The notes under the pieces: generated by a model
The model's database searches: none
Told to the model about the DNA's origin: nothing
Seen by the model: only the letters and a program-made list of their open reading frames with translations
Part shown: positions 6,301 to 59,193 of the stretch, piece by piece
Position numbering within the stretch: the stretch's first letter is position 1
How the letters are laid out: the number at the start of each line of letters is the position of its first letter
Assembly (NCBI RefSeq): GCF_964204645.1
Contig: NC_134034.1
Location: forward strand, 11,804,462 to 11,868,461
Direction: 5' to 3'
Source of the DNA: Tubulanus polymorphus
Lineage: Eukaryota; Nemertea; Palaeonemertea; Tubulaniformes; Tubulanidae
DNA length: 64,000 bases
Position numbers and translations under genes: made by a program

Positions 6301-9300
6301 GGACATTTAGTGCCAATCCGTTACGAACACCGGATATAACGTTTCAAAAAGGCTGACTTACGGTTCACGTTTATTGTAGAAGTACCTAGATCAAAAAATA
6401 TATGATCGCGTTGAAATGGCAATTTATTCAACCACTCTTAACAATTTGACTTATAGCTTTTGAAATTCGAATGTAATTTCATTCGTCTTGAACAGGAGTT
6501 GTGAGATGTTTATTCTAAATTGTAGATAATGTAATGACCAAGTCTTACCAGTTGGCGGAGTTGTTCCTGGCGCCGGTGTTCCTGGAGAGGTTGTTCCAGG
6601 CGGAGTTGTACTAGGTGTGGCTGTTACTGGAGTAGTTCCAACTGCAAGTGAAAATTGGATTTTATGGAGTTGATTGAAATGAAATATTCATCGATATATC
6701 AGAAGATTATCAGTGAATCAAACCTTGTTTTTCGTAACACGCTTTCACTGTAGTTTCAGATACTTCTGGGGTATTTCCTGTTTTAGACGGCGTTATGGTT
6801 ATTCGAATGTATGAACCAGGTACGCCATCTGGTGTCATCGTAGTTGTGTAATCTAGCTCAACTGGGCTTGATGTGTTTGGATCGGTTGGTGTGGTGACCT
6901 ATATTAAAAGAAAATGGGTGAAAATTGGGTTGATTTCCATTCAAACGAACTTAGCATAAGATAGAGAGCAATTCAAGTCTAAAGTCAATACACGTTCGCT
7001 TCAACATACCTTCCTGTTTTTCCAAGTCGTTTTATCAAGACTCGTTTCGACGACAACTTCATCAACATTCTTTACAACAACCGAAACATTGACAATTGTA
7101 ATCGGAGTACCAGGCTTGTTTTCAATCTCCAATGTTACGGTTGGTTTTTTATCAGCAGGTGTTGGTGACCAGACTTTTGGGCTTTTCTCAAAAACATCAG
7201 TTGATGTTTGTTGATTCGATGTTGTTGTCACTTTGACATCAGGACTGTTTGCATCGATGACAGTTTTCGTACAACGTTTTGCTAGATTGAGAACATTTTC
7301 AATTAGTTTTGATACAACTATTTTCTCTTATTTGTTGTTTGTACTCAATTGTCAATGTGCAAAGCTTACGTGTAGTTGTTGCTGGGGTTGAACCTGGAGG
7401 GGTTGTCCCTGGTGGGGTAGTCCCTGGTAGAGTAGTCCCTGGTGGGGTCGTTCCTGGTGAGGTAGTCCCTGGTGGGATTGTCCCTGGTGGGGTTGTCCCT
7501 GGAGGTGTTGTGCCTGGACTAGTTCCAACTGCAAGTGAGAATGAAGACACCACACAGTGGATTTAATGGTGTGGATGGGGATGAAATATTCAATATCAGA
7601 TAAATGTCAGTGAATCAAACCTTGTTTTTCGTAACACGCTTTCACTGTAGTTTCAGATACTTCTGGGGTATTTCCTGTTTTAGACGGCGTTATGGTTATT
7701 CGAATGTATGAACCAGGTACGCCATCTGGTGTCATCGTAGTTGTGTAATCTAGCTCAACTGGGCTTGATGTGTTTGGATCGGTTGGTGTGGTGACCTATA
7801 TTAAAAGAAAATGGGTGAAAATTGGGTTGATTTCCATTCAAACGAACTTAGCATAAGATAGAGAGCAATTCAAGTCTAAAGTCAATACACGTTCGCTTCA
7901 ACATACCTTCCTGTTTTTCCAAGTCGTTTTATCAACACTCGTTTCGACGACAACTTCATCAACATTCTTTACAACAACCGAAACATTGACAATTGTAATC
8001 GGAGTACCAGGCTTGTTTTCAATCTCCAATGTTACGGTTGGTGTTTTATCAGCAGGTGTTGGTGACCAGACTTTTGGACTTTTCTCAAAAACATCAGTTG
8101 ATGTTTGTTGATTCGATGTTGTTGTCACTTTGACATCAGGACTGTTTGCATCGATGACAGTTTTCGTACAACGTTTTGCTAGATTGAGAACATTTTCAAT
8201 TAGTTTTGATACAACTATTTTCTCTTATTTGTTGTTTGTACTCAATTGTCAATGTGCAAAGCTTACGTGTTGTTGTTGCTGGGGTTGAACCTGGAGGGGT
8301 TGTCCCTGGTGGGGTAGTCCCTGGTAGAGTAGTCCCTGGTGGGGTCGTTCCTGGTGAGGTAGTCCCTGGTGGGATTGTCCCTGGTGGGGTTGTCCCTGGA
8401 GGTGTTGTGCCTGGACTAGTTCCAACTGCAAGTGAGAATGAAGACACCACACAGTGGATTTAATGGTGTGGATGGGGATGAAATATTCAATATCAGATAA
8501 ATGTCAGTGAATCAAACCTTGTTTTTCGTAACACGCTTTCACTGTAGTTTCAGATACTTCTGGGGTATTTCCTGTTTTAGACGGCGTTATGGTTATTCGA
8601 ATGTATGAACCAGGTACGCCATCTGGTGTCATCGTAGTTGTGTAATCTAGCTCAACTGGGCTTGATGTGTTTGGATCGGTTGGTGTGGTGACCTATATTA
8701 AAAGAAAATTGGGTTGATTTCCATTCAAACGAACTTAGCATAAGATAGAGAGCAATTCAAGTCTAAAGTCAACACACGTTCGCTTCAACATACCTTCCTG
8801 TTTTTCCAAGTCGTTTTATCAAGACTCGTTTCGACGACAACTTCATCAACATTCTTTACAACAACCGAAACATTGACAATTGTAATCGGAGTACCAGGCT
8901 TGTTTTCAATCTCCAATGTTACGGTTGGTTTTTTATCAGCCGGTGTTGGTGACCAGACTTTTGGGCTTTTCTCAAAAACATCAGTTGATGTTTGTTGATT
9001 CGATGTTGTTGTCACTTTGACATCAGGACTGTTTGCATCGATGACAGTTTTCGTACAACGTTTTGCTAGATTGAGAACATTTTCAATTAGTAATGATTCA
9101 ATTCGCCGCTCTTATCTGGTTCCTATATTCAATTGACATTTTGCAAAGCTTACGCTGTGTTGTTGCTGGAGTTGAACTTGGAATAGTGGTTCCAGGCGTG
9201 GTTGTCCCTTGTGGGGTTGTTCCTGGAGTAGTTCCAACTGCAATTTAGAATGAATAGACCACACCGCGTAATATTTTATATCGATGATTGGAATTAAATA

Positions 9301-12300
9301 TTCATTGATATATCAGAAAAATGTCCGTAAATCAAACCTTGTTTTTCGTAACACGCTTTCACTGTAGTTTCAGATACTTCTGGTGTATTTCCTGTTTTAG
9401 ACGGCGTTATGGTTATTCGAATGTATGAACCGGTTTCGCCATCTGGTGGTGAAGTAGATCCATAACCAACGTCAACTGTGTTTGATGTGGTTGAATCTGT
9501 AGGTGTGACGACCTACATTAAAACAGATAGGTGAAAATTAGGTTAATTTTTATTTTAACGAACTTAGATTAAGATAGAGAGTAATTTATGTCTAAAGTCA
9601 GTGAAAGTTCGCTTCAAAATACCTTCTTGTTTTTCCAATTCAATCCATCAGGACTCGTTTCGACTACAACTTCATCAACATTCTTTACAACAACCGAAAC
9701 CTTGACAACTTTTACCGGAGTACCAGGCTTGTTTTGAATTTCCAATATTACGGTTGGTTTTGTATCAGCAGGTGTTGGGGACCAGACTTTTGGGCTTTTC
9801 TCAAAAACATCGGTTGAATTTGGTGAATTCGATGATGTTTCAACTTTGACATCAGTACTGGTAGCATCGATAACAGTGTGTTTACAATGTAATGCTAGAT
9901 TTAGAATATTTTCAATTAGTTTTGATACAACTATTTTCTCTTATTTGTTGTTTGTACTCAATTGTCAATGTGCAAAGCTTACGTGTTGTTGTTGCTGGGG
10001 TTGAACCTGGAGGGGTTGTCCCTGGTGGGGTAGTCCCTGGTAGAGTAGTCCCTGGTGGGGTCGTTCCTGGTGAGGTAGTCCCTGGTGGGATTGTCCCTGG
10101 TGGGGTTGTCCTTGGAGGTGTTGTGCCTGGACTAGTTCCAACTGCAAGTGAGAATGAAGACACCACACAGTGGATTTAATGGTGTGGATGGGGATGAAAT
10201 ATTCAATATCAGATAAATGTTAGTGAATCAAACCTTGTTTTTCGTAACACGCTTTCACTGTAGTTTCAGATACTTCTGGGGTATTTCCTGTTTTAGACGG
10301 CGTTATGGTTATTCGAATGTATGAACCAGGTACGCCATCTGGTGTCATCGTAGTTGTGTAATCTAGCTCAACTGGGCTTGATGTGTTTGGATCGGTTGGT
10401 GTGGTGACCTATATTAAAAGAAAATGGGTGAAAATTGGGTTGATTTCCATTCAAACGAACTTAGCATAAGATAGAGAGCAATTCAAGTCTAAAGTCAATA
10501 CACGTTCGCTTCAACATACCTTCCTGTTTTTCCAAGTCGTTTTATCAACACTCGTTTCGACGACAACTTCATCAACATTCTTTACAACAACCGAAACATT
10601 GACAATTGTAATCGGAGTACCAGGCTTGTTTTCAATCTCCAATGTTACGGTTGGTTTTTTATCAGCAGGTGTTGGTGACCAGACTTTTGGGCTTTTCTCA
10701 AAAACATCAGTTGATGTTTGTTGATTCGATGTTGTTGTCACTTTGACATCAGGACTGTTTGCATCGATGACAGTTTTCGTACAACGTTTTGCTAGATTGA
10801 GAACATTTTCAATTAGTTTTGATACAACTATTTTCTCTTATTTGTTGTTTGTACTCAATTGTCAATGTGCAAAGCTTACGTGTAGTTGTTGCTGGGGTTG
10901 AACCTGGAGGGGTTGTCCCTGGTGGGGTAGTCCCTGGTAGAGTAGTCCCTGGTGGGGTCGTTCCTGGTGAGGTAGTCCCTGGTGGGATTGTCCCTGGTGG
11001 GGTTGTCCCTGGAGGTGTTGTGCCTGGACTAGTTCCAACTGCAAGTGAGAATGAAGACACCACACAGTGGATTTAATGGTGTGGATGGGGATGAAATATT
11101 CAATATCAGATAAATGTCAGTGAATCAAACCTTGTTTTTCGTAACACGCTTTCACTGTAGTTTCAGATACTTCTGGGGTATTTCCTGTTTTAGACGGCGT
11201 TATGGTTATTCGAATGTATGAACCAGGTACGCCATCTGGTGTCATCGTAGTTGTGTAATCTAGCTCAACTGGGCTTGATGTGTTTGGATCGGTTGGTGTG
11301 GTGACCTATATTAAAAGAAAATGGGTGAAAATTGGGTTGATTTCCATTCAAACGAACTTAGCATAAGATAGAGAGCAATTCAAGTCTAAAGTCAATACAC
11401 GTTCGCTTCAACATACCTTCCTGTTTTTCCAAGTCGTTTTATCAACACTCGTTTCGACGACAACTTCATCAACATTCTTTACAACAACCGAAACATTGAC
11501 AATTGTAATCGGAGTACCAGGCTTGTTTTCAATCTCCAATGTTACGGTTGGTGTTTTATCAGCAGGTGTTGGTGACCAGACTTTTGGACTTTTCTCAAAA
11601 ACATCAGTTGATGTTTGTTGATTCGATGTTGTTGTCACTTTGACATCAGGACTGTTTGCATCGATGACAGTTTTCGTACAACGTTTTGCTAGATTGAGAA
11701 CATTTTCAATTAGTTTTGATACAACTATTTTCTCTTATTTGTTGTTTGTACTCAATTGTCAATGTGCAAAGCTTACGTGTTGTTGTTGCTGGGGTTGAAC
11801 CTGGAGGGGTTGTCCCTGGTGGGGTCGTTCCTGGTGAGGTAGTCCCTGGTGGGGTTGTCCCTGGTGGGGTTGTCCCTGGAGGAGTTGTGCCTGGAGTAGT
11901 TCCAACTGCAAGTGAGAATGAAGACACCACACAGTGGATTTAATGGTGTGGATGGGGATGAAATATTCAATATCAGATAAATGTCAGTGAATCAAACCTT
12001 GTTTTTCGTAACACGCTTTCACTGTAGTTTCAGATACTTCTGGGGTATTTCCTGTTTTAGAAGGCGTTATGGTTATTCGAATGTATGAACCAGGTACGCC
12101 ATCTGGTGTGATCGTAGTTGTGTAATCTAGCTCAACTGGGCTTGATGTGTTTGGATCGGTTGGTGTGGTGACCTATATTAAAAGAAAATGGGTGAAAATT
12201 GGGTTGATTTCCATTCAAACGAACTTAGCATAAGATAGAGAGCAATTCAAGTCTAAAGTCAATACACGTTCGCTTCAACATACCTTCCTGTTTTTCCAAG

Positions 12301-15300
12301 TCGTTTTATCAAGACTCGTTTCGACGACAACTTCATCAACATTCTTTACAACAACCGAAACATTGACAATTGTAATCGGAGTACCAGGCTTGTTTTCAAT
12401 CTCCAATGTTACGGTTGGTGTTTTATCAGCAGGTGTTGGTGACCAGACTTTTGGACTTTTCTCAAAAACATCAGTTGATGTTTGTTGATTCGATGTTGTT
12501 GTCACTTTGACATCAGGACTGTTTGCATCGATGACAGTTTTCGTACAACGTTTTGCTAGATTGAGAACATTTTCAATTAGTTATGATTCAATCATTTTCT
12601 CTTATTTGCTTTATAGATTTAACTGTTAATGTGCAAAGCTTACGTGTTGTTGTTGCTGGAGTTGAACGAGGAGGAGTTGTCCCTGGTGGGGTTGTCCCTC
12701 GAGGTGTTGTGCCTGGAGTAGTTCCAACTGCAAGTGAGAATGAAGACACCACACAGTGGATTTAATGGTGTGGATGGGGATGAAATATTCAATATCAGAT
12801 AAATGTCAGTGAATCAAACCTTGTTTTTCGTAACACGCTTTCACTGTAGTTTCAGATACTTCTGGGGTATTTCCTGTTTTAGACGGCGTTATGGTTATTC
12901 GAATGTATGAACCAGGTACGCCATCTGGTGTCATCGTAGTTGTGTAATCTAGCTCAACTGGGCTTGATGTGTTTGGATCGGTTGGTGTGGTGACCTATAT
13001 TAAAAGAAAATGGGTGAAAATTGGGTTGATTTCCATTCAAACGAACTTAGCATAAGATAGAGAGCAATTCAAGTCTAAAGTCAATACACGTTCGCTTCAA
13101 CATACCTTCCTGTTTTTCCAAGTCGTTTTATCAACACTCGTTTCGACGACAACTTCATCAACATTCTTTACAACAACCGAAACATTGACAATTGTAATCG
13201 GAGTACCAGGCTTGTTTTCAATCTCCAATGTTACGGTTGGTTTTTTATCAGCCGGTGTTGGTGACCAGACTTTTGGGCTTTTCTCAAAAACATCAGTTGA
13301 TGTTTGTTGATTCGATGTTGTTGTCACTTTGACATCAGGACTGTTTGCATCGATGACAGTTTTCGTACAACGTTTTGCTAGATTGAGAACATTTTCAATT
13401 AGTTTTGATACAACTATTTTCTCTTATTTGTTGTTTGTACTCAATTGTCAATGTGCAAAGCTTACGTGTAGTTGTTGCTGGGGTTGAACCTGGAGGGGTT
13501 GTCCCTGGTGGGGTAGTCCCTGGTAGAGTAGTCCCTGGTGGGGTCGTTCCTGGTGAGGTAGTCCCTGGTGGGGTTGTCCCTGGTGGGGTTGTCCCTGGAG
13601 GTGTTGTGCCTGGACTAGTTCCAACTGCAAGTGAGAATGAAGACACCACACAGTGGATTTAATGGTGTGGATGGGGATGAAATATTCAATATCAGATAAA
13701 TGTCAGTGAATCAAACCTTGTTTTTCGTAACACGCTTTCACTGTAGTTTCAGATACTTCTGGGGTATTTCCTGTTTTAGACGGCGTTATGGTTATTCGAA
13801 TGTATGAACCAGGTACGCCATCTGGTGTCATCGTAGTTGTGTAATCTAGCTCAACTGGGCTTGATGTGTTTGGATCGGTTGGTGTGGTGACCTATATTAA
13901 AAGAAAATGGGTGAAAATTGGGTTGATTTCCATTCAAACGAACTTAGCATAAGATAGAGAGCAATTCAAGTCTAAAGTCAATACACGTTCGCTTCAACAT
14001 ACCTTCCTGTTTTTCCAAGTCGTTTTATCAACACTCGTTTCGACGACAACTTCATCAACATTCTTTACAACAACCGAAACATTGACAATTGTAATCGGAG
14101 TACCAGGCTTGTTTTCAATCTCCAATGTTACGGTTGGTTTTTTATCAGCAGGTGTTGGTGACCAGACTTTTGGACTTTTCTCAAAAACATCAGTTGATGT
14201 TTGTTGATTCGATGTTGTTGTCACTTTGACATCAGGACTGTTTGCATCGATGACAGTTTTCGTACAACGTTTTGCTAGATTTAAAGAATATTTTGTGTTA
14301 AATCAATTTCAACCTAAACGTAATTCCATAATTACTGCAAAAATTCGTACGCGCTGTTGTTGCTGGCGTTGTTACTGAAGGAGTGGTCCCAGGAGGACTT
14401 GTTCCAGGGCGAGTTGTTCCGGGAGACGTCGTTCCTGGAGGTGTCACAGATGGTCCTGGAGAACCACTTGTTGCTGGAAGATTTAAATGGTGATACATTA
14501 GAACAAAACTAATTATCTATTTCAGGATGTAATCTTTGTGCTAAAACGATAGGATATCAAAAATGGAAAATACCCATGCTAAAATGTATCCACACACCAT
14601 AAAAATACGAATTCTGAAAATTTGCAGTCCACCTAAACATCCGATATGCTGTTTCGATGGATGATATACAACAATGTACGGTGAAAAAATACGAAACCAC
14701 GAAAATAAATACGGTTCAGGTTATCAGTTTATGGACAACCATTATATGCAATGAGACGGGTAAGGGCTATGTAGAGTAAGTGATGGTGCGTTATACCAAA
14801 TGGTACTTACGACGCTCGAATATGCAAGCCCAAACATACGCTTGAAGGTTCCAAGCACTGATGCCGAAATAGAACCTACGAGCCAGGAATCGAACCTTAC
14901 TCGCACGAGTCTCCGGACTAAAATGTACTGTATTCGATACTTCCGTGTCGATCGATTTCACTAGATTCCATGACTTTGTGTCGACATCAAACCGTTCGAT
15001 ATCGATTAGTTTTGCACTAGTGTCTATTTGAAGTTTCACAACACCGGGTATTTCAGAAGTGGTATTGCTAAGGTCAATAGTAATAGATGGATGGACTGGA
15101 CCCACCTGACTCAAAGGAATGCTAAAGGGAGCTGAACCGCGACCTAGGGCATTTGATGCACGAACTGTATCGATATTAGGATTCGACGTTATAGCTGAAT
15201 CGGGAACAAGGTCTTTCCTATCATTGATTAACACCGTTTTGTCATTGCATTCTGAAGTTGTGGCAGATGGCGATGTGTTTTGTAAAGTTACTAAAACTGA

Positions 15301-18300
15301 ACCTACTGTTGATGGATTTTTAATAGTGCTACTGACCAAATCTAAGGTTGCTGAGGTGTAGGCATTTGTAATGCTGGAAGCACTATTTGTTGTTGATTCT
15401 TGGTCATGTCCAATCGTACTTGAAGTAATCGATGGGGTTGGCAGGGACGCAGATGAACTTACAAATATTGATCCATGTGCACCAATAGTAGTGGGAGTAC
15501 CTTGGGAATGAGGAGACGGAGTAAATATAATCCTTGGTGTAGACGGACCAGAAAATGAACTTCCTGGTAAGTTGGGTTGCGGCAATGAAGTTGAACCAGT
15601 TACCGATGGTTCACCAGTTACAGATGTGACTGGCGTTGTTCCGCCTGGTGTATTTCTAACAGGGATTATAGTACCAGGAGATGTAGTAACAGATATAACT
15701 GGTGGTGTTGTGCTTGCTGTAGTACTAACAGTGGATAAAGTTAAACCGGATTCAGTAGTTACTGATGGTTCACTAGGAGGTGTAGTTACAGATGTAACTG
15801 GCGGTGTTGTACCCGGTGTACCACTTACAGTGGATGGAGTTGAACTAGATTCAGTAGTTACTGATGGTTCACTAGATGTATTTACCGATGTGACTGGTGG
15901 TGTTGTGCCTGGTGTACTACTAACAGGGGGTAAAGTTGAACCAGATTCAGTAGTTACTGATGGTTTACCAGGATGTGTAGTAACAGATATAACTGGTGGT
16001 GTTGTGCCTGGTGTACCACTAACAGTGGATAAAGTTGAACCGAACTCAGTAGTTACTGATGGTTCCCTAGGAGGTGTAGTAACAGATATAACTGGTGATG
16101 TTGTGCTTGCTGTAGTACTAACAGTGGATAAAGTTGAACCAGATTCAGGAGTTACCGATGGTTCGGCAGGAGATGTAGTTGGAGATGTGATTGGTGGTGT
16201 TGTGCCTGGTGTACCATTCACAGTGGAGTGAGTTGAACTAGATTCAGTGGTTACCGATGGTTCGAAAGGAGATGTAGTTGCAGATATAACTAGTGGTGTT
16301 GTGGTTACTGTAGTACTAACAGTGGATAAAGTTGAAACGGATTCAGTAGTTACTGATGGTTCACTAGATGTAGTTACAGATGTAACTGGTGGTGTTCTGC
16401 CTGGTGTGCCAGTAACAATGGGTATAGTTGAACTAGATTTAGTACTTACTGACGGTTCACTAGAAGGTGTAGTTACAGATGTAACTGGTGGTGTTGTACC
16501 CGGTGTACTACTAACAGTGTATTGAGTTAAACTTGATTCAGTAGTTACTGATGGTTCGCTTGGAGCTGTAGTAACTAGTGGTGTTATGCCTGGTGTACTA
16601 CCAGCAGTGGGCAAAGTTGAACCAGTATCAGAAGTTATTGATGGTGCACTAGGAGATGTATTTACAGATGTAACCGGTGTTGTTGTGCCCGATGTTCTAT
16701 TAACAGTGGATAAAGTTGAACCATATTCAGTAGTAACTGGTGGTTCGCTAGGAGCTGTAGTAACCGATGTCACTGGTGGTGTTGTGCCTGGTGTACTTAA
16801 AACAGTGGGAGAAGTTAAAACAGATCCAGTAGTTACTGATGGTTCACTAAGAGCTGTAGTAACCGATGTAACTAGTGGTGTTGTGCCTGGTGTTCCACTA
16901 GCAGTGGGTAAAGTTGAACTAGATTCAGTAGTTACTGATGGTTCACTAGGAGATGTAGTTACAGATGTGACTGGTGTTGTTGTGCCTGGTGTACCTCTAA
17001 TAGTAGATGAAGTTGAACCGGAAACAGTAGTTACTGCCAGTGGTGTCGTTGTGTCAGGGGTGTAAGTAACGGTTGGTACTTTTTTCATAATGCTGGTTGG
17101 TGTAACTTTAAGTGAAGAAGTGCCTGTAACTGCACCCACTGGAGTCGATACTACTCTAGGTATAGAGGTTATGGCTGGCGATCCACTAAGAGTGGGTCCT
17201 GTTGTGGTAATACTGGGTACATTTTTCCATGTAGTCCAAGCAATAAATGTTGGTCTAGACAGATGAACAGTTGATTCCGATGGAACGGATGTCTTTGGAA
17301 TCGTAGTCTTATGTCGTGTTTCTGTCCCGATGGAGATAGTTGTGGCCGTGGTTGTTGTTGGTAAGCTAGGATATGTCACTCTTTTCAGATCTATACAAGC
17401 CTTAATTTCCGCAACAAGATGTTGCTCGTCATTATCGAGGAATGCAACTGGTATGAGTCGTATTTTAGATGTCGTCAACTCCGGTTGAAATGTTGCCACT
17501 TTATCGATGGTTACGTTGACGGTTTTTGCAACTTTCCATACGTTATTTGATGGATCGAGGTATTCTATATGTACAAGTCTGGCATTCGTATCTATTTTGA
17601 CTTCAGTTATTCCCGGGATACTTGCCGCATTATATCCGATATGTATTTCTACAAAACTTCTCTTTGTCCCAACTTTGTTCGTCCATGGACCAATGTCGCC
17701 TCGACTCAGCACACCTATTGCCCTGTGGCTGGTTGGATAGGAGTATATTGCACAATCGGGCACCAAATCACGTCTTTCGTTGATCAAGACAGATTTTTCA
17801 ATACAGTTTTTTAATTTGTTTGGTGTCTCAGTCGACGAAGGAATGGTAGGTGCGGTTGAGGTTGTTTTTGCTATTGTGGTTGGTACATCGGTTATTTCAG
17901 GTCTGTTTGGACTGTAAGTGATAGCTTTCTGCGTAATAGTTGGTTGTATGGTAGGTGGAGATTTCGTTAGACGAGTAGCTAGCTTTGAGCTGTATGGTGT
18001 AATCCTTACTGTGGGAATAGTTGAACCGGCTAGACTGCTTTCTGGCAACTCACTGCTGGTTGGTAATGTTGAACCGGATACAGTAGTTACTGATGGTACA
18101 CTAGGAGGTGTAGTTACAGGTGTAACAGGTGTTGCACCTGGTGAACCGCTATCACTAGGTAAAGTTGAACTAGATTCAGTTGTTACTGATGTTTCACCAG
18201 CAGATGTGGTAAGAGATGGAACTGATGGTTTTGTGCCTGGTGTACCACTAGTGGATTCAGTTGAACCGGGTTCAGTAGTAACTGATGGTTCACTAGATGT

Positions 18301-24300: not shown

Positions 24301-27300
24301 CGCGCTATTGGCGGTAAGATCTAGTGTCAATGCGGCGGGCTTATCGCCGGTTTTGGGCTTCAAGATAACCCACTGGGTCGCGTTTCCTCGATTCAAAGCG
24401 CCCAGTACAGACGTTAGTGACTCGGGTGACCCATCGGCCGGCGTAGCTGACACCTGACTATCGGAAACTAATCCTGGCTTATCGTTTATAAGAACAGCTT
24501 CTTCCTTGCAAGTTTCTGTAAATCATAATACACGTAGAACGTCATATGTGTCGTTCATAATTCTTCAATCTCAATCATTAACGACATTAATGAATAGATT
24601 CGCAAAACTTTGCGATAAGTATTTGTCAATACCACTTTTAGAATTCTGTGAAATTCCGCCGATACTGAGGTGATATTTTACCGGATTCACGTTAACCAAA
24701 AAATCACAAGCAGTTATAACTCTGTGGCAACCAATATTTCCTGAATTCAACTCTTTCAGACTAGGAATGACCTATGAATCAGTAGAAACTTACTTTGTGG
24801 TGGAGTCGACACTGTAGTTGATGCTAAAATGGAAAATAGAAAGTAGATGTACTTGACATATAGAGATATACGATGATGGTTGAGTTTATAGATAAGCAAT
24901 GGGTGAGGCAACAATCACATATAGCATCTGCAACTTCCCCTTCATTTTAAAGCGACCTAAAATGCGTCTAAAAGCAGGATAAATGTTACATTAATATCAA
25001 CAAATGAACGCTGTAAGTAGTCACTGGAATTCTGCAAGGAGAAAAGACAAACATAGGATTAAAGCCTTTGTCCGACAGAGACAATTACTAGTACACACTA
25101 CTGCGATAAGTTGGGACGAACAATTATTGCAGAAGCGCTACAAATACTTTTGCTAACTCTAAAAGCTGTCCATGTACCTAGAAGCAAAGGCATATAATTT
25201 CTCCGGACAATTCCAGGTTACAACATAGCGACTGGAATCCCCGTATCCTGAATCCGTGTTCACTGCTCTAAATTTGATGCAAGACTTGTCTGTTCGCTAT
25301 CCAATCAAACATTATGTCACTGTAGCCTAGCCGGCGACTTCACAGTCTGGATTTCCCCGAACCAGAAATTTGGGGTTAAGCTCCGTGTGATTTTATTGAA
25401 ACCGTTAGCTATACCAGGTTTAAGGTGATACCATTGCATGCAAAATGGGTCTGCGAAACTGCACTAGATAGCGATAACATTTTTCTGTTCTAATCATTCC
25501 GCACTCACTTGGTTCAATGCATGCGAACACTTGGATTTTCACTTCATACGCATCGATGACGTTAATTGGATATTGTCTAAGATTCTTTGCGATAAGTCGG
25601 AACTTCGTCGCAGGCAGTGTTGGCCGAAACAGTAGCGAAGTACGTAAAGTGCCGATCGGCTTCCATTTGCCGACATTGTCGATAATTTCAACATCGAATG
25701 CTTCGATGCCTTTCGTACTGGCAGCAAGTGCGAAAAGTTGTGGAACTCCGGCTGCTTTTTTCGCCAAGTCGAATGTAAAAATTGGATCTTTGCCAGCTGT
25801 ATCATTTTGTGAGAATGTCAACATATTTTGTCCCCCTCGTCCGAGGATGCTATATGGTTTTGCCACGGACGGGTTTTCTGTCGTGATCTGATCGTTGCCG
25901 AATAGATCGGTTCTATCGTTGATTTGGACTACATTTTTTGAACTACAGGCTGAAATTCAAATATCGTAAAAAGCTGATGACAATGAAAGCTCATGTTGAA
26001 AAGGCACGTACAGATATATACACACGCAAGCATACGACGCGTGAACTAGATCTTACATCATTCTCTATCGAGAGATGGAGAGAAATGTGTATCTAGAGAT
26101 TGAAAGCGGTGATAGCATTTACATCCATTCCTTTAAAGAAGTCTTCGTTTAATGATATTATTGGCATGAAATAATTCATTATGTGTATATTGAAAAAGCT
26201 ACCCCAATCAGGAAGCGCGTCTAGAACTTTTTTTTCCAGTTCACTTACTCGGCGGTGTCGTTGTCGCCAGTGTGGACGGTCCTGGTGTTGTTGTGAGAAT
26301 TGTTGTAGTTGGAATTGTAGTTGGTTTTGAAGTAGCTGAAAAAACCGAACTATATTGGTAAAAGTTGTTTTCCTTCCTTTTGCGCGTGCTCATCATATAA
26401 GTCAAGAGCAATTTATGAAAACAGAGCGTTGATCATAGATTATATCATCATCTGCCTCGTTTAGCTGGAATGTTTGGAAATTATTTATTTACTGCTTTAT
26501 TGGACCTACACTCGATGATATTCTAGGTTCTGTTTATTGAACTCACCCGGTTCCATACAGACAGAAATCTGTACCGTTATGTGTATAATCGAGTTCTCGA
26601 GATCTATTGGAAGCTCAGTTGCGATCAACCGAAATTTCGTTGTCGCTACTGCTGGTTCAAACAGGGCTTCGTCATTTTTGATATTAGAATCTGGTACTTT
26701 GACCCATTCGCCGTTGTTTCCAACGACCTCTAATGCGAATTTCCTTATATTTGTGTCGACCATAATGTGAACAAGTTGTGGAACTCCGGTCGCTTTTTTC
26801 GCCAAGTCGAACGTGAAAATTGGACCTTTGCCAGATACACTTCGTTGTGGAAACGCCAACATTGTTTTTCCTCCTCGTCCGATGATGTTGTACGGTTCTG
26901 ACACAGACGGGTTTTCTGTCGTGACCTGATCGTTGCCGAATAAATCAGGCCGGGCGTTGATAACGATAGCGTCCGCTCGTTTGCAGGAGGGCTGAGCTGA
27001 AATTCATAACAACCGACGATATGTGTATGTGTGCTGCGTGTTATAGGGGCTAAAACTGTCTCTACAATCGTGTGCACAACTTAATGTCATAAACTGCACT
27101 TCGATTTAAACCAACAACTTCGGAATCAAAACATATATCAGACAAAATACAAAATTGGTTTCATCATTTCTATCCGAAAGTACATCTACGCCTGATTTCC
27201 AGTGCACTTACTAGGTGGCGCTGTTGTCACCGTTGTGGATGGTGCTGGGGTTGTGGCAACTATTGTCGTAGTTGGAATTGTAGTTGGTTTCGATGTAGCT

Positions 27301-30300
27301 GGAAAAAACCGAACTATATTGGAAGAAATTCCTTCCTTTTGTATTCATCAGATTGAAAGCATCGTCTGAACATCGTAATAGAACGATTTGTGAAAATGGG
27401 GTGGAGGTCATCAAAATGAAATCGTGGTCAAAAGCTTAGGTTGAACAGATTCTTTCACGAGAAGATTCGTAGAATAGCCGTGTTAACCGGGTGTAGAATA
27501 AATAATTAAACGAGTAGTATTATGTATTTGACGAACGAGCTTTCACTGCTAATGTATACATTAGCTTCATCGGTCGAATGAGTATAGTACATAGGCCTAC
27601 TACTCGTCTCGATATAGATTTTATCATGTGCCCAGTGTACTGAATTAGCATATTTCCTATCATGGACGCTTGTGAAAATATTCAACTGCTTTGATGACCT
27701 CCACCCGACGATATCCTAGGTTCTGTTTGATGAACTCACCAAGTTCCATACAGACAAAAACTTGTACCCCTATGTTTATAATTGGAGACTCTGGTAGCTT
27801 AGTTGCGATCAACCGAAATTTCGTTGTCGCTATTGCTGGTCCAGACAGGGCTTCATACTTCTTTATACTAAAATTTGGTACTTTGACCCATTCGCCGTTA
27901 TTTCCAACGACCTCTAATGCTAATTTCTGTATATTCGTGTAGACCTCAAGGTCCTCAAGTTGTGGCACTCCGGCCGCTTTTTTCGCCAAGTCGAAAGTAA
28001 AAATTGGATCTTTGCCGGATGTTTCGCTTCTTTGAAAGATCAACGACGCTACTCCTTCTCCTCGACCGATGATGTTGTACGGTTCTGACACAGACAGGTT
28101 TTCTGTCGTGACCTGATCGTTGCCGAACATAGCAGGCCAGTTGTTGATGCGGATAGCATTCGCTCGATTACAGGTGGGCTGAGCTGAAATTCATAATGGC
28201 CCACAATTGGTGTATGTACGATGGTGTGGAACAACTTAAGAATCAGTTGAAATCTGTCCACGTCATGGTCAGATGCAAAATTATAACGATTTGAAATTTC
28301 GATTGTAACCCACGAATTCGGAATTGATATTCAATTGGAACGGTTTAATAGTTTCAAACTCTCGAATTTTCACCGAAGATTCATTATTTTACACGCGATT
28401 TTTTCGTTCATTAAACGCGCATTTTCTGGCAAAAGTATCGAGCTCTTTCTCTATCAATCAGATCGGAGCCATTGGCATTGTTTCAAATATTGCTTAAACC
28501 AAGTGCCGAACGAAATACAGAACAAGTTTCAGATATTCATATCCGAAAGTATATCTTGGGAGAGTTTTCCTGGGCACTTACTAGGTGGCACTGTTGTCGC
28601 CGTTGTGGATGATGCTGGGGTTGTGGCAGCTATTGTTGTAGTTGATGGAGTAGTTGGTTTTATGGTTGCTGGAAAAAAATCGGAACATTTTCGTGCGAAT
28701 TCATCGATCAAAGAGATGATTTTGACGACTAAGAGTTAAATAAACAAGCAGTGAAGTAGATTGAATTGAAGTCGACTTCAATTGGAGGACTTCTTCATCG
28801 TGCAAACGTTCTCTCTGAAATTCAAAACATCTGACGAAAATCATCAAAATTGTCCTCAGAAAAAGTTGTTACAAAAAATTCAATCAGTCAACTGAAAATG
28901 AGTATACTAATAATGAAATTGGACCCGGTTCCAAAAGATGGTTGAAAATGCTTTTGAAATCGTATAAATCTTAACCAAATACAGTGAATTTAGATTCGTG
29001 AGCCCTAACGAAAAACCCCATCGGCAGTCTAAGCGTCAGATTAAACCAATTCTCACGGAACCAGATCCTGGGACTTTACTCGTTAACATTTATTGAAATG
29101 ACGAATAAAAAGTTTGTTTTTTATCATGGAAAATAATAAAAAATATAGCGCACACTCACTTGATGGTACAGGTGTCGTGGGTGTTGGTCCCGTAGTTGTA
29201 GGTGTTAGTGTTGATGAGCCTGAAATGTTGTTTTTGTTTATATACTAGAGGTATGTGTCGTCGTGTTTCAGTGGGTTTATATGTATATGAATGTGAAAAA
29301 CGAATTCGTGATTGCATTTTACGCGGCACGGTTGCTCTATAAGTTGAATTATGTTGACTTCGAGCACTGCTAGAAACCAATCTCGATCAGGTTTCTTTGC
29401 GAAGTACTCAGAGTTCGATTTTATTTATATACTTTCATAGAAAAAAGTTCTTTTTAAAGAAGTGTTAGGATGATCTGTAAATGAAGTATGCTTTCGGGCT
29501 CTGAAGGCTTTAACTGAGGACAGAGTCACCCGGATCCAGTTCCACAGTTGTGAGTTTGAGTTTACTCTCCAGATAGAATAAGTTCATCTTCGATGAATTA
29601 ACACTTAAAAAAACCTTTAAACTCAGTACCGTACCGTGAAACGGGTTCCAGACGATGACGTTAAGCTTGTTGTATGTTTAACTCAATTGGTTAACATAAA
29701 ATCCAATACTTACTCGGCGGTCGGCAGACACAACATCCAGTCGACGGCGAGATATCTTTCACAAGTCCCTGATTTAAGAAATATCGAGAAAACAGAGTTA
29801 AGATATCGTCGTAACGAATTCGAATGCCTTATATTAAAAATACATGTATTGTTGCTAATATGTAATCTGATTATATCAAAACTATAACAAAGCATCTTAT
29901 GATAGCAAAGCGCAAATCATCAGCTAAAATCAAATTAACGAATCGTCCTGTTGCTTGTAATTTCAACTATGTTTTGACGAGGCCGCGTTAATAACGTTGT
30001 AATATATGAGTCAGTTGCATAAGTCATGGCTTAGGTTAAGCTCATCTTGGTTTTGACAAGCAGCGCAACACCAGTCTATGGCCATCTCAGTTCAGCCAGG
30101 GAAGTGTGACTTCCCCGGTTCAGCTAACAATCATTTCACGTCGGTTTTATTAACAGCGAAAGACATTTCCCTATTCCGTAAGTCATATGTCGTATGTCAT
30201 ATGCTGTTGAATGTACTTACGGGGCTACACTGTTCTGTATTGCAGTCTTTACCGCACGTTACTGATCCGTTTATACATGTACATTCGATGCATTTCGTTT

Positions 30301-33300
30301 TGTTCCAAACATCACCGTCCTATCAATAGAAAACACGAACACATATATTCATATATTACTGAAGATGGATATTATAAATAATAATCAAAACGTTGATCGA
30401 ATGTTAAGCCCAATGAAATTCGGATTTCTTTTTTACTTTGCTTTGTGTAGGATTCAATGTTATTCAATGACAAGACCATATCCAAAACAATATTTGAACA
30501 ACTGGTCGATTTGCTCATGAATTGCTACGACGTTCTAGGTGCCTGTTGGAGTAATCATTTGGGAGCAATCAAATGATTACAATGATTTACTCAAATGATT
30601 ACTCCACGGTTTGACGTCTAGAGCTGATGACATTACTCTCGTAGATGAAATCTTGTTCATACTTACAGCACGTTCAACTGGCGGTTTACCAGGTACGGTA
30701 GACTGTTCCAAGCAAGGGCAATTCCGTTCATCCGACCCGTCCGCGCAGTCGATTTTCTTGTTACATTTATCAACCTTTTTAAAGCACTGTTTACAATCAT
30801 CGCACCGCATGTACGTGCTGTCTGCGCACTCGACGCAAGGCGAGGTTGTTGGCGAGCTCGGTGGGACTACTGGAGTTGTCGCAGTTGAAGCTGGACTACT
30901 GACGGGAGTGGTTGTGTGCGGCACTGTAGTGGTTATCGGGGGCGTAGTCGGAACTAGAACAAAAAGCCAAATACATCGTTATATGTTATATCATCTTTAT
31001 GTATTACCAGGGCGATAATATTGCGGAAAATGTATGTACAACGCGTTGAAAGGTGACAAAATCCTAAATTTCCAAATGACCGAGGAAAGATTATGTAAGA
31101 TTTCTACATATCTAGTTACATAGATGTACATAAAAAATGTATTCTACACGGTTTATTTTTCTCGAATATTTCTTAATTGTAATCATTCCAATAATCTAAT
31201 CATTGCGGATGAATAAAGAACATATTTTGAACTGAATTCGAATGAATTATCAACATAAATATAAGACATCCGGATAGAGAGACCTCAACTATATCATATT
31301 CAACTTACGTTTCTTGCAGTGACAACAGTCATTTGGATTATTCACCAATGTTGTCTAAAACAAAACAAAAAAAAACAATTTCAATCAGTGATATTATACA
31401 CTGATTACAAAGGTTCGAGGAAGGCCTAATCTTTTCTTGGCCCAGACGACAACAGATACTATACTAACCCCTGTTCTACAAGTAATTGAACAGATTATCG
31501 TGCATTTGAGCGTGCACCCTAGATCGTACGTGCATGTTTCGTCACAGGTCACTGTGCCATTATATTTCCTCGTGAACGGCTTGCCGATCTACGAAACAAT
31601 ATCATGCGTATCATTTATTACATCGTATCATTATTAACCATTATTAGAACAACAGCAATAACAATAACAATAACAATAACAATAACAATAACAATAACAA
31701 TAACAATAACAATAACAATAATAATAATAATAATGATGATAATAAAATGCTAGTGAAATTTACATCAAACATTTGCAGTTGTCAAGAAGCACCAAATCTT
31801 TTTTTCAATATCAGCATCATGATACATAGATCAATATAGAAAACCATCTTGAAAATAAGGTCCAAAAATTGCAAATTGAGATGATTCAAAATTCAAAGGT
31901 TTTCACGAGAACGAACATGATTCTTACCGGGTACGTATCGTTGCCTTGTCCACATACACAATCGGTATGGTTGACACATTTTCCTTGGTCATCGACGACC
32001 ATATCAGTGGGACACATGCAGCATTTACCTGCACGAAAAAATAAAACAATATTCCTATGGCAATTGGATATTTCTGGAGATTATTAAACGAAAATAGAAA
32101 TAATCTCATCGCGACCTCGGTATAGCTGCACTGAAATATTACTGACTTATATCGGCCGAATAATCGTAGATAAGAAAATGTCCCTACTGATGTTATTACT
32201 TCACCGCCTATAAACATCTTGAAGTATTTCGTAAAAATTAACTAATCAATAAATTACATTTTATCTACCGAAATATTTCTCTCATTAGTATGTTCGTAGT
32301 TACTCTTGTTATTTCTATTTTTTATCTAAATCAGTTATATCGTAGTATATCGCGTTTTTGAATTTGTAATTTTTCTACTGTGTTGTTATGAATATAAATG
32401 TAAATTGTGTGTTGTCCGGGTTTCAGTGTAAATGAAACAAATAAAACTTAAAAGACGTCGACTTCCGACGTACCGAATTTATCGGGAGTCTTATCCGTGC
32501 ACACGGTCGATGCTTGTCGATTATTCAGGACGTCCTGACACGTTCGTTCGCAACCGCAGCTTTCATACTGTTTACCATCGGTACACGGTGGAGTGGTCGG
32601 TGGTATCGTTGTCGGTTGAGGCGAAGTTGTAGGCACGGTTTTCGGGGATGTCGTCGGTATCGGGGAGGAGCATTCGTTGATATCGATGCACTCGAGGACT
32701 TCGATCTTTATGTTCGCCAGGTATTGGTTATTCGGATCCTTAGCTAGGTAAATCGTTAATTTCTTCGCTGATACAGGTTCGTTGACCAGTGTATTACTCG
32801 GTGTGAAAACCTACGTAAGACAATTTCATAATCGTTATTATCATTATTATTGACATTTTGGCGTCCTATTTAGTGTTATGCACTGCTCACGGGTTCTTAC
32901 GTCATCTAGAAAGTACATTTAGCAATCATGCAGGTAGCTGGAGTAAACTTTGTCAATTTAGAATACGGGTACATGTAATATGAAATTTGAAAATCTTCAA
33001 ATCTAGAAACCACATGGTGAAATAGCCCGTACACTCGTCCAAGGAGAAAAAAGATTATAATCGATATCTATTTATCGAGAATGAATAAAATCAAAAAGAC
33101 AAGACGAACTCCCCACTTTTCGTGTAGAAACGATTGTCGAACATTTTTTGGGAATAAACGCTACCTGTTTATTTCCGTTAATGTCTTTTACTGGTGCCAT
33201 TGTATTTCTGGCCATCATCGAGTTGGAATATTCTGCGGTCCATTCGTACCCGTTTATGACTTTGATATTGTGAATAACAAGAGGCCGTTCCCCGATTCCG

Positions 33301-36300
33301 GCTAGAGTCAGTTCGATGTGTGGGTTCGAACTGAGTCCGTAATTCAACGTCCAACCTTTACCGTCCGTCTTAACGATATCTCCCGATCTGCTGAGCGCGC
33401 CGCCATTTATGAACAGCCGGATCTTCGAAGCGGCGATATCCTTCATGACGTTAGTGCACACCGATTTAATGCAACCTATGAAAAAACGCGACACAGATTC
33501 GTGTTAGTTCGCAATGAGACATCTAATACAGGGCAGGCACGGATCCAGAGGGGGGTTTCAGGGGTCGTGACCCCCTGCTCAGCTACCAAAAAAATTTCTT
33601 AATCGTTTTTTTGAAGGAATATACTCAAGACAAAGCGGCCGAACAGTACTATATAATCGGTACCATATCATTTTATGTTTGGCCATACAATATCCCGTTA
33701 AGGGTCCCTATCAGAGATTTTAGTCGGTGGTTTGACATTAACTTTCATTAACACCCTCCTGGAAAAAATCTTGGATCCGCACCTGCAGGGGCTGCAGTTG
33801 TCCGAAAGAAAACCAACGGATAAATACCATAGCAACAATGAACATTTAACTATCGCTATGTCAACTATCCACTACTCAACTCGATCCAACTTTTGAGCAA
33901 CTGACCCCAGCACGTGTATCGATCGAGTCGGTTTAACGAAAATAAAGTGTAGTTCAAGTAGAACTAGTGGAGACTGATGGCTGACAATGGCCATTACGCG
34001 ATACAGCCGAAACGTTGTTGAAATAACATATCCATTTACGGAAGAACTTTCTTTTTCCGGACTTATTACTTTAATGTAGGATTGTTGACAACAAAGACAA
34101 GTTCCCCTATGTAAGATGCTAGAACATCGAGTAGTGGACCGATGTCGGACTCGTCATCAATACTTTCAGTGTAAGATGATTTGAAGAATATTGTATGTGC
34201 GTATATATTACCGGGTGATGTAGTTGAAGAGATTGGTCCGGAAGCTGTAGTGATCGGGGGTGGTACTGTCGATGCGCACGACGGGCAACACTCTCCTTCT
34301 ACGTGGACGGCCGACAATCCCTGAAAATGATGACGTAATTTCTTTTTCCAAACACAGCAAAAAGTAAATGAAATCAGTTCGGGTGAATTAAATTCAAAAA
34401 CGAGCGATTCATGAATGTGTCGGAAATACAGTAAACCTGGCCTTTCTCTGACATGGCCAACTGAGACCTTTGTCAAAATCATTTTTCTGATTAACATATT
34501 TTCGTATCGTTTACGCGTACTAGTTCACAGTAAGGCGAAGTTTACTCTAAATCGAACCTCAAACCGATGTTGTTTACTTACCGCTTTTTCGCAGAGAAGT
34601 TGCGCACATTGAACGCCGCACGATATCGTCCCGTTTAGACATGTACACGTTTTGCAGCCTTTCTTCCAAGTTTCGCCAGGCTATGCAAAAAAATATTAAT
34701 GAAAATAGTCATTTCACGCGAAACACTTATATTTTAGCAGTTACATCGGAGTAAACCGGCATTAAAAGTTTTTTTTTCGTGTTTTCAAAAAGAGTTCGCC
34801 GTTTTGGAAATTATTTGCACGGGATACTTAGATCTACGACCATTCTTATACCACGGAAAATACTTAGATTTTAGATCACTCGAAGGTCATGTTAGTTCGA
34901 TTTCCAATCTTAAGGCCGGTCTAATGAATGATTTAAGACAATTTCGGTCACGACCGTAGAAGTAGAATAGTTGTGATAACAATCAAATCTATCAATCTAT
35001 CATATATATGTAAGATATAGTCCGTAACTTTACCCGAGCTTATGATTCATTTGAAAATTCCACTAAGAGCTAATAGTCATCTTCGGGTTCCCAAAGATGA
35101 CACGGATGACTATTATGACAAAACTTCGAACGAAACTTTGCTCGAATAAGATTTTCGGACTCGTTTCATTTTTGGGATTGTATCAACGAATATCAACAAG
35201 GTTCAAGTCATTCTAACGTACTTTGTGAGTGGAATTGGTTTCTGGGTCCTTGCATTGACACTCTTCTTTTAATACACAATCGATTCCGTCCAAAAGGAGA
35301 GGGCTGCTGCCATTCATCGGCTTTGCGCATATGCATCCTGGGACGCAGTCGGCTTGTTGTCTGTTGCATTGAACGAACGTACCGTTCTTCTGGTAGGTGC
35401 ACATGTGATCGCAGGGGGTAAAGCAATCGGTCGGTTCCTTACCGGGCGGGCAGGCTAGCGAAGAGAACGATGGTAAATGTAAATTTTGAGATATTCAAAT
35501 ATATTTTCGTCGTAATAAATCTAAACACCACACGAATGCGTAAACAAATTCGAATTAGGGTTCAAAAACGTCCAACCACAATGAAACATTCGAAATCGTG
35601 TCTTATGGAGGAATAAATGAATATCAAACTCAAGCACACGCGGAGGTACGAAGGCTGCTTACTAATTGTGGTAGTTGGTGGTACGCTAACGGTAGTGCTT
35701 GTAACAGGTGTTGTCAGTGGAGACGTGGAACCTAATTAGAAAAAAAAACATAACATGTTAACATGCTTTTTGTGTAAACGGACGAATTGGAGCGCGGTAT
35801 GGAACTCCGACGGCCAATATGACGCGCTGTAACGTGTATACATAGATATTATTTGTTTTTAGTCTCTCTTACCGCTGGAAGGTGGCGTTGTTGACGTCGA
35901 GCAGAGAGTCTCGGTGCATTCGAAAACACCGTCTTCACAAATGCTGAAATTCACAAAAGCAATAAACGTTGAAACGTTGCAAATAATGCTCGCTTCTCGT
36001 CCGTCTCCGGTTCAATATCCCGGGCGGTGCTTACCATTCTTTACAGTTCAACAGTAATTTATATCCTGGTGGATAAACTTCGGATGGGTTTTCCGGGTTG
36101 GCGCACTCACAGTTTTCTGGCTCGACGCATCGCCCTGGAGTAAAAGAAAACAATGATATGAAATAATGTTGTTTGACTTCACCGCCGATCCAGACAGGAG
36201 CACAAGCATCACGTGCCGGCGCCGTAATGTTCCCATGCCCTTTTGAAAATACAAAGGCAACATTTTTCAGCGCCGGTTTCTACCCACAACGATGGAACTA

Positions 36301-55320: not shown

Positions 55321-56052
55321 CAAGACGTCGAAATTCACACCTCCGTTCATAACGATTGTATAAGTCATTAATTGTCTGCTTAATCACAAATTTCTTTCTT
55401 TTTAAATTTTGCAGCCCATCCATCTTCCCAGCGCCCTTCTCAAAGAATCTCCCGAAGCCAAATATGATCTTGAAATGATCTTAAATCGAAATATAGATTA
55501 AGCATGATAACTATAATCATTTATGGAATGTCGAATAAGCAAGATAAATAAATAAATATAAGGATATTTAACTTTTCAAAGTTTCTTCTAAAAGCAATTA
55601 TATACAATTTACAAGAATGAATAGATGGGCTTTTCGGATATTTTTAGTGATAGAATTCCAGGAGCTGAGATTGCAGGAATTTGGCCCAGAACTTTTTCCT
55701 GCCTTTTCTTTTGGTATATACACTTTTCTATTAACTGTTAAAAGCGGTGCGACGAAAATTTAATGTAGGCATCAGTTATAGAAAAGTCGTGATTTGGAAC
55801 ATGTAATCGACGCGCACGCACACGCGAGTCAAGCATACGACTCCTCCACACACAGTTCATACTGTGTTGATTTATCGTTTAAAATGTGCACCTGTTTATT
55901 GCGTACAGACTGCGAATCGATTCGAACCTTTTGTCGAATGTCGTTAAAACTAACATCAGGCCCTGTTCACGTGATTATTATAGAAACGCGCTCTTTTCGC
56001 AGTGGTGTTCATTGACGCGCAAAACCCGTTATTCCCGATTCGGATTCAACGG

Positions 56053-56285
56053 ATTTTCTGGTCTCCTGAAGTTCGTTGTAACGAGGTTCCACTGTATTTA
56101 GAACTGTCGGCTATCATGAACATATTTTCTGGTCTCCTGAAGTTCGCTGTAACGAGGTTCCACTGTATTTAGAAGTGTCGGCTATCATGGACAGATTTTC
56201 TGGTCTCCTGAAGTTCGCTGTAACGAGGTTCCACTGTATTAAGAACTGTCGGTTATAATGGACAGATTCTCCTGAAGTTCGTACT
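56053..56285. repeat. 71-bp tandem repeat, three to four copies
   Basis: ATTTTCTGGTCTCCTGAAGT starts at 56053, 56124 and 56195, with a partial fourth copy. Inverted relatives (CTTCGGGAGACCAGAAAATC) occur near 45618, so the unit derives from a dispersed element. Confidence 0.8.
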
Positions 56286-58937: not shown

Positions 58938-59193
58938 CTCCATAAATCACCCTATGACATCATAAGTTCAAGTGATTTGAACTACAGACAGTCTAGAAAA
59001 GAAGGTTGTTTCAATAAACCACCCTATGACATCATTAGTTCAAGCGATTTGAACTACAGACAGTCTAGAAAAGAAGGTTGTTTCAATAAACCACCCTATG
59101 ACATCATTAGTTCATGTGATTTGAACTACAGACACTTCTAGAAAAGATGGTTGTTTCAATGAATCACCCTATGACATCATCAGTTCATCAAGT
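58938..59193. repeat. 72-bp minisatellite, about four copies
   Basis: CACCCTATGACATCA recurs at 58948, 59020, 59092 and 59165. The unit also contains a short inverted repeat around TTCAAGTGATTTGAA. It lies within or just beyond the 3' UTR of the unrecognised gene. Confidence 0.85.

Follow-up and report, generated by a model that had tools for sequence, protein, structure and literature searches.

What are the compact units that interrupt a mucin-like gene of the nemertean Tubulanus polymorphus? The gene lies on the minus strand of a 64,000-nucleotide stretch of contig NC_134034.1 (positions 11,804,462 to 11,868,461; hereafter the window, numbered from its first letter), where segments rich in proline, threonine and serine (PTS) alternate with units bounded by a cysteine at each end. 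An initial annotation, made from the letters alone, counted 17 such units, matched them to no named mucin module, guessed at a discoidin (F5/8C) sandwich and considered them a candidate for an undescribed system. We find that the units, which we call beads, are a divergent branch of the discoidin domains that is absent from profile libraries and is used here as mucin beads; they are not a new fold. On balance, we think it probable that this is a giant secreted gel-forming-mucin-like gene whose diverged F5/8C beads act most likely in the manner of CysD.

Bead number, size and types

A profile search of all six frames of the window recovered the 17 beads, each 137-149 residues from Cys to Cys, as had been claimed. 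Both terminal cysteines are present in 17 of 17, every excised unit has a Trp at residue 76-102, and bead 7 (copy 17805) has one additional internal Cys. The observation of repeated two-Cys units is confirmed as real. By analogy, the two terminal cysteines of each bead would be joined by a disulfide bond.

The bead exons were defined from their stop-to-stop frames and splice sites. There are three types: seven single-exon beads (type I; copies 28172, 26985, 25947, 24510, 19539, 17805 and 15249), nine two-exon beads (type II) and the first unit. Ten of the 17, namely the nine of type II and the first unit, are split by a phase-0 intron. Copies 19539, 17805 and 15249 lie within a single PTS frame. 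All 17 beads keep open frames and both cysteines, and all ten split beads keep their splice sites. Only the Cys pair is invariant across types, with the Trp and some hydrophobic positions mostly retained, and representatives along the locus are 13-27% identical to the first row of our larger profile (A10). The motifs of the originally described consensus do exist, but that consensus mixed the types: VLIN-x-R-x-DLV belongs to single-exon beads only and W-K-N-R-K to two-exon beads.

Predicted discoidin fold and probable F5/8C ancestry

AlphaFold2 was run on the single-exon copy 15249 (bead 8), using an alignment of nine rows that all came from the window, and gave a model with a pLDDT of 89.0 and a pTM of 0.84. 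A Foldseek search of the PDB with this model returned 75 matches with E <= 0.001. The best, with E from 2e-6 to 3.4e-6, were factor VIII C2, neuropilin-2 (Nrp2; b1), DDR2 and the NanJ CBM32; APC10, BIRC6 and IFT chains came next. In VIA-align, discoidin domains made up most of the best 50 rows (Z 12.3-13.2, rmsd 2.6-3.5, 117-137 residues aligned), and glycosidases, CBM32s and chains of the IFT complex were among the others. Modelling one copy and comparing it with discoidins, as the initial annotation had advised, thus yielded a confident discoidin sandwich and not a disordered chain. These results support a predicted discoidin beta-sandwich fold for one single-exon bead. The other six single-exon beads are, judged by their sequences, clear relatives of the modelled copy.

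The split beads were compared with F5/8C matches of this genome that mostly end near mid-domain. Seven canonical domains were followed on both sides: in four (L006, L008, L015 and L017) a phase-0 intron lies directly before [VIK]F-x-G-N, in L003 it lies five residues before that site, and L010 and L012 (two of seven) gave no resolved boundary. Several other canonical matches gave the donor only. The related locus at C10:11.43-11.45 Mb has seven repeated exon Bs. Six begin on a codon boundary with AG directly before [EI]F-x-x-N (acceptor side only; donors for these exon Bs were not found), and the seventh has N-F-S-G-N after its AG. Scanned by itself, one of these exon Bs (48 residues) had no Pfam match. 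In the beads, the boundary falls between INGNKQ and VFTPSN in the first unit and between WKN(R/K)K and V(T/V)TPTD in the nine two-exon copies, always in phase 0. Ten of the 17 beads thus share intron position and phase with the F5/8C domains of the genome; the other seven have no intron. Because both place and phase are the same, we believe that the beads descend from F5/8C and do not merely have a similar fold.

Profile comparisons were made with A10 and with a profile of ten bead representatives (A2). The first PDB match of A2 was 4bxs (factor V-like). Both its C1 and its C2 region were matched, for a whole-chain E of 1.1e-5, and the better of the two had an E of 0.015 by itself. A reversed six-sequence decoy reached a best E of 0.11 and found no F5/8C. 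Three of the five PDB matches of A10 were F5/8C-type proteins (E 0.05-0.11). When hhalign was used against a profile of 11 F5/8C sequences from this genome, the first unit gave a P of 1.3e-4 (probability 54%) and A10 one of 1.8e-4 (49%), against 0.73 for reversed decoys.

The bead types are also connected with each other. In a six-frame search of the window, a 17-bead profile refinds its 17; below E 10, no other match has a positive score. A 14-representative profile finds these 17 and 12 more beads in the adjoining 68 kb to the left, on the same strand (seven of the 12 were in its training set); below E 1 it has no plus-strand match, and reversed sequences give one (E 0.66). We then removed each unit together with its close relatives and scored it against 1000 shuffles. 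The seven single-exon beads match each other at 30.6-87.6 bits, compared with at most 12.7 for shuffles. With window copies only, scores did not exceed those of the 1000 shuffles for the two-exon type (6.1 and 5.0 bits) or for the first unit (4.6 bits). With seven left-flank beads included, 15 of the 17 sequences tested scored higher than every one of the 1000 shuffles under a model of the other types, one of them (E1) narrowly (12.7 vs 12.1). Copies 28172 and 25947 were not above shuffles against other types even then; the held-out test ties them within the single-exon type. The two-exon type and the first unit are thus linked to the other beads because the left-flank beads act as intermediates. 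In sum, the discoidin guess is borne out by structure for one single-exon copy and by kinship for its six single-exon relatives, whereas the probable assignment of the ten split beads to F5/8C rests on intron position, the profile match of the first unit and linkage through intermediates.

Several observations weigh against our preferred reading. The curated Pfam cut-off for F5/8C (PF00754) is 28.2 bits, and it is reached by none of the nine window units scanned (17805 and seven near-identical two-exon copies were left out) and by none of eight left-flank sequences, the best score being 17.8 bits. PF00754 appears below the cut-off in four of these 17 sequences (E 0.0038-0.058); among the nine window copies, bead 14 is the sole one for which it is reported (E 0.011). 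A genome search with PF00754 (60 matches listed) placed none in the window. Canonical F5/8C domains of the genome, once spliced, pass the cut-off in five of five cases, having been found with the same model. The list of A10 does not contain 4bxs, and its best PDB match has an E of 0.05. A PDB search with only the first unit brings up no F5/8C chain, its best match being eosinophil cationic protein (E 0.076). In hhalign, the single-exon type alone gives a P of 0.067 against F5/8C and the two-exon type alone 0.083. The AlphaFold2 model covers one single-exon copy only, and exon A of the two-exon type, modelled by itself, gave no usable structure (pLDDT 50). The intron comparison set was chosen for matches that stop mid-domain. 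Entropy is 2.29 in loops and 2.25 in strands, which is no signal of ligand-loop variation, although gaps in the bead alignment are found mainly outside the strands. Last, the single-exon profile (A3) finds Kelch proteins first, both designed and natural ones (best E 2.2e-13), over a segment of 20-30 residues.

From the sub-cut-off Pfam scores and the local Kelch-like matches, one could argue that the fold is unrelated by descent to F5/8C and that the beads, as a convergent beta-sandwich or Kelch-like structure, form a new domain family. We consider this very improbable, as discoidin and CBM32 chains predominate in the structure lists, the phase-0 intron position is common to the F5/8C domains of the genome, and A2, the first unit and A10 gave the profile matches described above. 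A Kelch identity was rejected: the matches are short, no single stretch passes in the strong rows, the targets repeat the motif, and the predicted fold is discoidin. Clostridial neurotoxin chains (E 0.16) and CBM32 4a42 (E 0.36) in the same A3 list were dismissed as weak or chance matches, and the sub-cut-off Pfam and NCBIfam matches to PrgU, Kelch_1, HMA, GLD-3 KH, PH_27, DUF6140, Asp, DUF5091, HCP, MglB, CsoZ and UspF as chance. For the nine copies scanned, the statement that the beads are not CysD, SEA or VWC holds against Pfam, and the proposed comparison of the copies with named domains put no scanned copy over a curated Pfam cut-off. In that respect the word undescribed is apt, but the fold is known and the ancestry very probably is too.

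Growth of the array and its mucin context

The series of beads continues to the left on the same strand, so the 17 copies that had been placed in one protein are a window count. Four further matches, 33-40% identical to the queries, lie farther left on the same strand (C10:11.7316-11.7351 Mb). Pairwise genome searches with two window units (5 and 18 matches) and two left-flank units (8 and 6 matches) hit this locus only, among the matches listed. Among the VWD matches listed, none falls in the 68 kb adjoining the window on its left, so the left-flank beads may belong to the same gene as the window beads. The bead/PTS array runs on across the left flank (window coordinates -1805 to -66976) over 67 kb or more, without a change of strand, and additional bead types appear there. 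PTS-rich frames there reach about 1480 codons, and Cys-rich exons are seen, some of them TIL-like below cut-off.

The two-exon part of the array is young and is the product of recent tandem copying or homogenisation, because its introns are as alike as its exons. Cassettes follow one another at intervals of ~0.9 kb, joined by short linkers made of 15-bp repeats; two of the cassettes, read base by base, have the domain between phase-1 introns with the phase-0 split inside. In eight of the nine two-exon copies, DNA identity is 98.5% or more for exon A and 99.0% or more for the intron. Among these eight near-identical cassettes, introns are on average 99.8% alike and the exons 99.2 and 99.7%. Such identity might also reflect false duplication of the ~0.9 kb cassette in the assembly, but the spacing between cassettes varies (270-345 bp), one copy is distinctly diverged at the protein level (bead 14; Table 1), and the single-exon copies are distinct. 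We give an assembly artefact very little weight, although the exact number of cassettes may still be affected by the assembly.

The rest of the gene resembles a gel-forming mucin. Upstream of the beads, Pfam matches above cut-offs are VWD (1.4e-8 and 3.3e-16), C8 (9.8e-20), TIL (3e-7) and EGF, and VWD-C8-TIL assemblies are present as in gel-forming mucins, with VWD matches in three places. Downstream of the VWD regions are TIL-, VWC- and LDLa-like exons just below cut-offs. PTS segments of 1170, 425 and 703 residues contain 45-50% S+T and 14-17% P. Table 1 gives the coordinates.

Table 1. Beads and other parts of the mucin-like gene, in window coordinates
Feature	Coordinates	Strand	Remarks
Bead 1 (first unit), two exons	32682..33458 (33458-33165 + 32810-32682)	minus	354-bp phase-0 intron
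Bead 2, single exon, type I	27744..28181	minus	profile match
Bead 3, single exon, type I	26551..26994	minus	profile match
Bead 4, single exon, type I	25513..25956	minus	profile match
Bead 5, single exon, type I	24058..24519	minus	profile match
Bead 6, single exon, type I	19123..19548	minus	inside long PTS frame 14794-23124
Bead 7, single exon, type I	17389..17814	minus	inside long PTS frame 14794-23124
Bead 8, single exon, type I	14818..15258	minus	copy 15249, structure predicted; inside 14794-23124
Bead 9, type II	13718..14269 (exon A 14269-14003, exon B 13891-13718)	minus	
Bead 10, type II	12821..13372 (exon A 13372-13106, exon B 12994-12821)	minus	
Bead 11, type II	11999..12550 (exon A 12550-12284, exon B 12172-11999)	minus	
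Bead 12, type II	11132..11683 (exon A 11683-11417, exon B 11305-11132)	minus	
Bead 13, type II	10235..10786 (exon A 10786-10520, exon B 10408-10235)	minus	
Bead 14, divergent type II	9339..9889 (exon A 9889-9623, exon B 9512-9339)	minus	76% amino acid identity to bead 9
Bead 15, type II	8519..9060 (exon A 9060-8794, exon B 8692-8519)	minus	
Bead 16, type II	7622..8173 (exon A 8173-7907, exon B 7795-7622)	minus	
Bead 17, type II	6725..7276 (exon A 7276-7010, exon B 6898-6725)	minus	
PTS open frame	14794..23124	minus	2777 codons, around beads 6, 7 and 8
Three VWD regions	37961..47018 (46007-47018, 42645-42860, 37961-38885)	minus	Pfam matches
C8	within 45107-45538	minus	Pfam match
TIL	within 44213-44479	minus	Pfam match
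EGF-like exons	47938..50204	minus	upstream of VWD part; one (in 48702-49052) scanned against Pfam
LDL-receptor class A module	30580..30978	minus	after PTS stretch; 20.9 bits, below Pfam's 24.1

Similar combinations occur at other loci, each of which would be one gene. VWD, canonical F5/8C (1e-22), CysD (1e-21) and PTS are found at C10:10.66-10.69 Mb; VWD, F5/8C and PTS at C10:11.42-11.45 Mb; and VWD and F5/8C matches at C5:4.107-4.118 Mb. The seven genome matches listed for CysD (PF13330, Mucin2_WxxW) all fall in C10:10.662-10.674 Mb; none is listed at the bead locus, and CysD was not reported for any of the nine units scanned. CysD, canonical F5/8C and PTS stretches stand together within C10:10656000-10675999 (L024, L025). 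Inside the locus at C10:11.42-11.45 Mb, reverse transcriptase- and tyrosine recombinase-like frames, recognised by eye, occupy C10:11434766-11436820 (L026) and are probably an intronic retroelement. Many VWD (PF00094) matches of near-equal score fill ~0.5 Mb at C4:20458813-20932837, perhaps a separate expanded VWD family. Outside the bead region, the window has tandem arrays at 62143-62821 (56-bp), 58942-59187 (72-bp), 56052-56268 (71-bp) and 1290-1660 (66-bp).

Possible roles of the beads and known systems

In the model that we favour, the window would hold a large part of one giant gel-forming-mucin-like gene. Through its EGF part and its three VWD regions, together with C8 and TIL, the protein would form disulfide-linked polymers, as in vertebrate mucins and VWF. 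A central PTS brush, presumably O-glycosylated as in known families, would be broken by the beads, 17 plus at least 12 in line. We propose that the beads, as strongly diverged F5/8C sandwiches closed by their terminal cysteines, serve as compact nodes that bind weakly and reversibly to glycans, to one another or to other mucus proteins; this step, drawn from CysD, is the least certain. Such contacts may set the stiffness and stickiness of the gel. Bead number would grow by tandem duplication of bead-plus-linker cassettes, as was shown for the nine two-exon copies. It is conceivable, though we hold it only tentatively, that gel-forming mucins include a distinct class, represented by this locus, in which the role of CysD passed to a discoidin lineage that evolves fast. 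Its single ~120 kb locus would hold more than 30 beads, of several types, that serve as tunable cross-linkers or read glycans, and the class would belong to a family on one chromosome that otherwise has recognisable F5/8C and CysD beads.

The same discoidin fold could serve a different purpose. As a lectin string used in defence or adhesion, the beads might each bind glycans or lipids independently from a mucin stalk, with types that diversified for different surfaces such as microbes or substrate, as in the temporary adhesives of animals. The fold is common to the galactose binders of CBM32 and to phosphatidylserine- and collagen-binding discoidins, representatives differ strongly along the locus (see the identities to A10 above), and VWD-C8-TIL proteins recur in aquatic adhesives according to the available portions of two reports (PMC8621496, PMC7333891). 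However, the entropy values give no sign of hypervariable loops, and dN/dS is below 1 (0.39-0.78) in the four bead pairs for which it could be computed, a fifth pair being saturated; we regard a lectin string as unlikely. Slightly less likely again is that discoidin binding has been lost and that the beads are inert spacers, compact breaks in the PTS whose divergence and copying are near-neutral. The Cys pair as sole invariant across types would fit such spacers, as would the introns of the young copies, which are as similar from copy to copy as the exons are, so that identity comes from recent copying and not from selection. The retained frames, cysteines and splice sites and the dN/dS values oppose this only weakly, because they show constraint on folding, not on binding.

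If the beads do act as discoidin cross-linkers, as we favour, there is a second bead chemistry in mucus gels beside CysD, and profile libraries have been missing a divergent discoidin branch. As profile annotation finds no bead over cut-off, such a gene would appear as PTS-rich repeats behind a VWD head. Our literature search, which covered titles and abstract openings and reached subscription journals thinly, found no discoidin beads in a gel-forming mucin. The words discoidin and FA58C are missing from the main text of a sea-anemone mucin survey (PMC9080433), in the part available to us.

Among known systems, SCO-spondin and hemolectin/hemocytin resemble this locus in having VWD, C8, TIL and LDLa within a large secreted protein. 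They also carry F5/8C, in few copies, and we know of no long PTS-bead array in them. A limpet mucus protein of the SCO-spondin/hemolectin type has vWFD, C8, TIL and LDLrA, according to the accessible part of its description (PMC7333891). Sea-star Sfp1 and flatworm adhesive proteins share VWD-C8-TIL and EGF with this locus, and a discoidin/PTS bead array is not mentioned for them in the portion of PMC8621496 at hand.

The CysD domain of MUC2 and MUC5AC occupies, in vertebrate mucins, the same niche as the beads, a compact module repeated between the PTS stretches of VWD mucins; the beads differ from it in sequence and in fold class. An added poly-CYS protein tightens mucus, according to the part of PMC6861317 available to us. 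The related loci on one chromosome form a series from recognisable F5/8C to unrecognisable beads, which should be useful for studying how mucins swap modules. The beads themselves are like F5/8C (PF00754) and CBM32 domains in predicted fold, in size, in the Cys at each end, in the central W segment and in the phase-0 intron before V-F-x-G-N, but they differ in their sub-cut-off scores, in their very low sequence similarity and in their arrangement by the dozen between PTS linkers.

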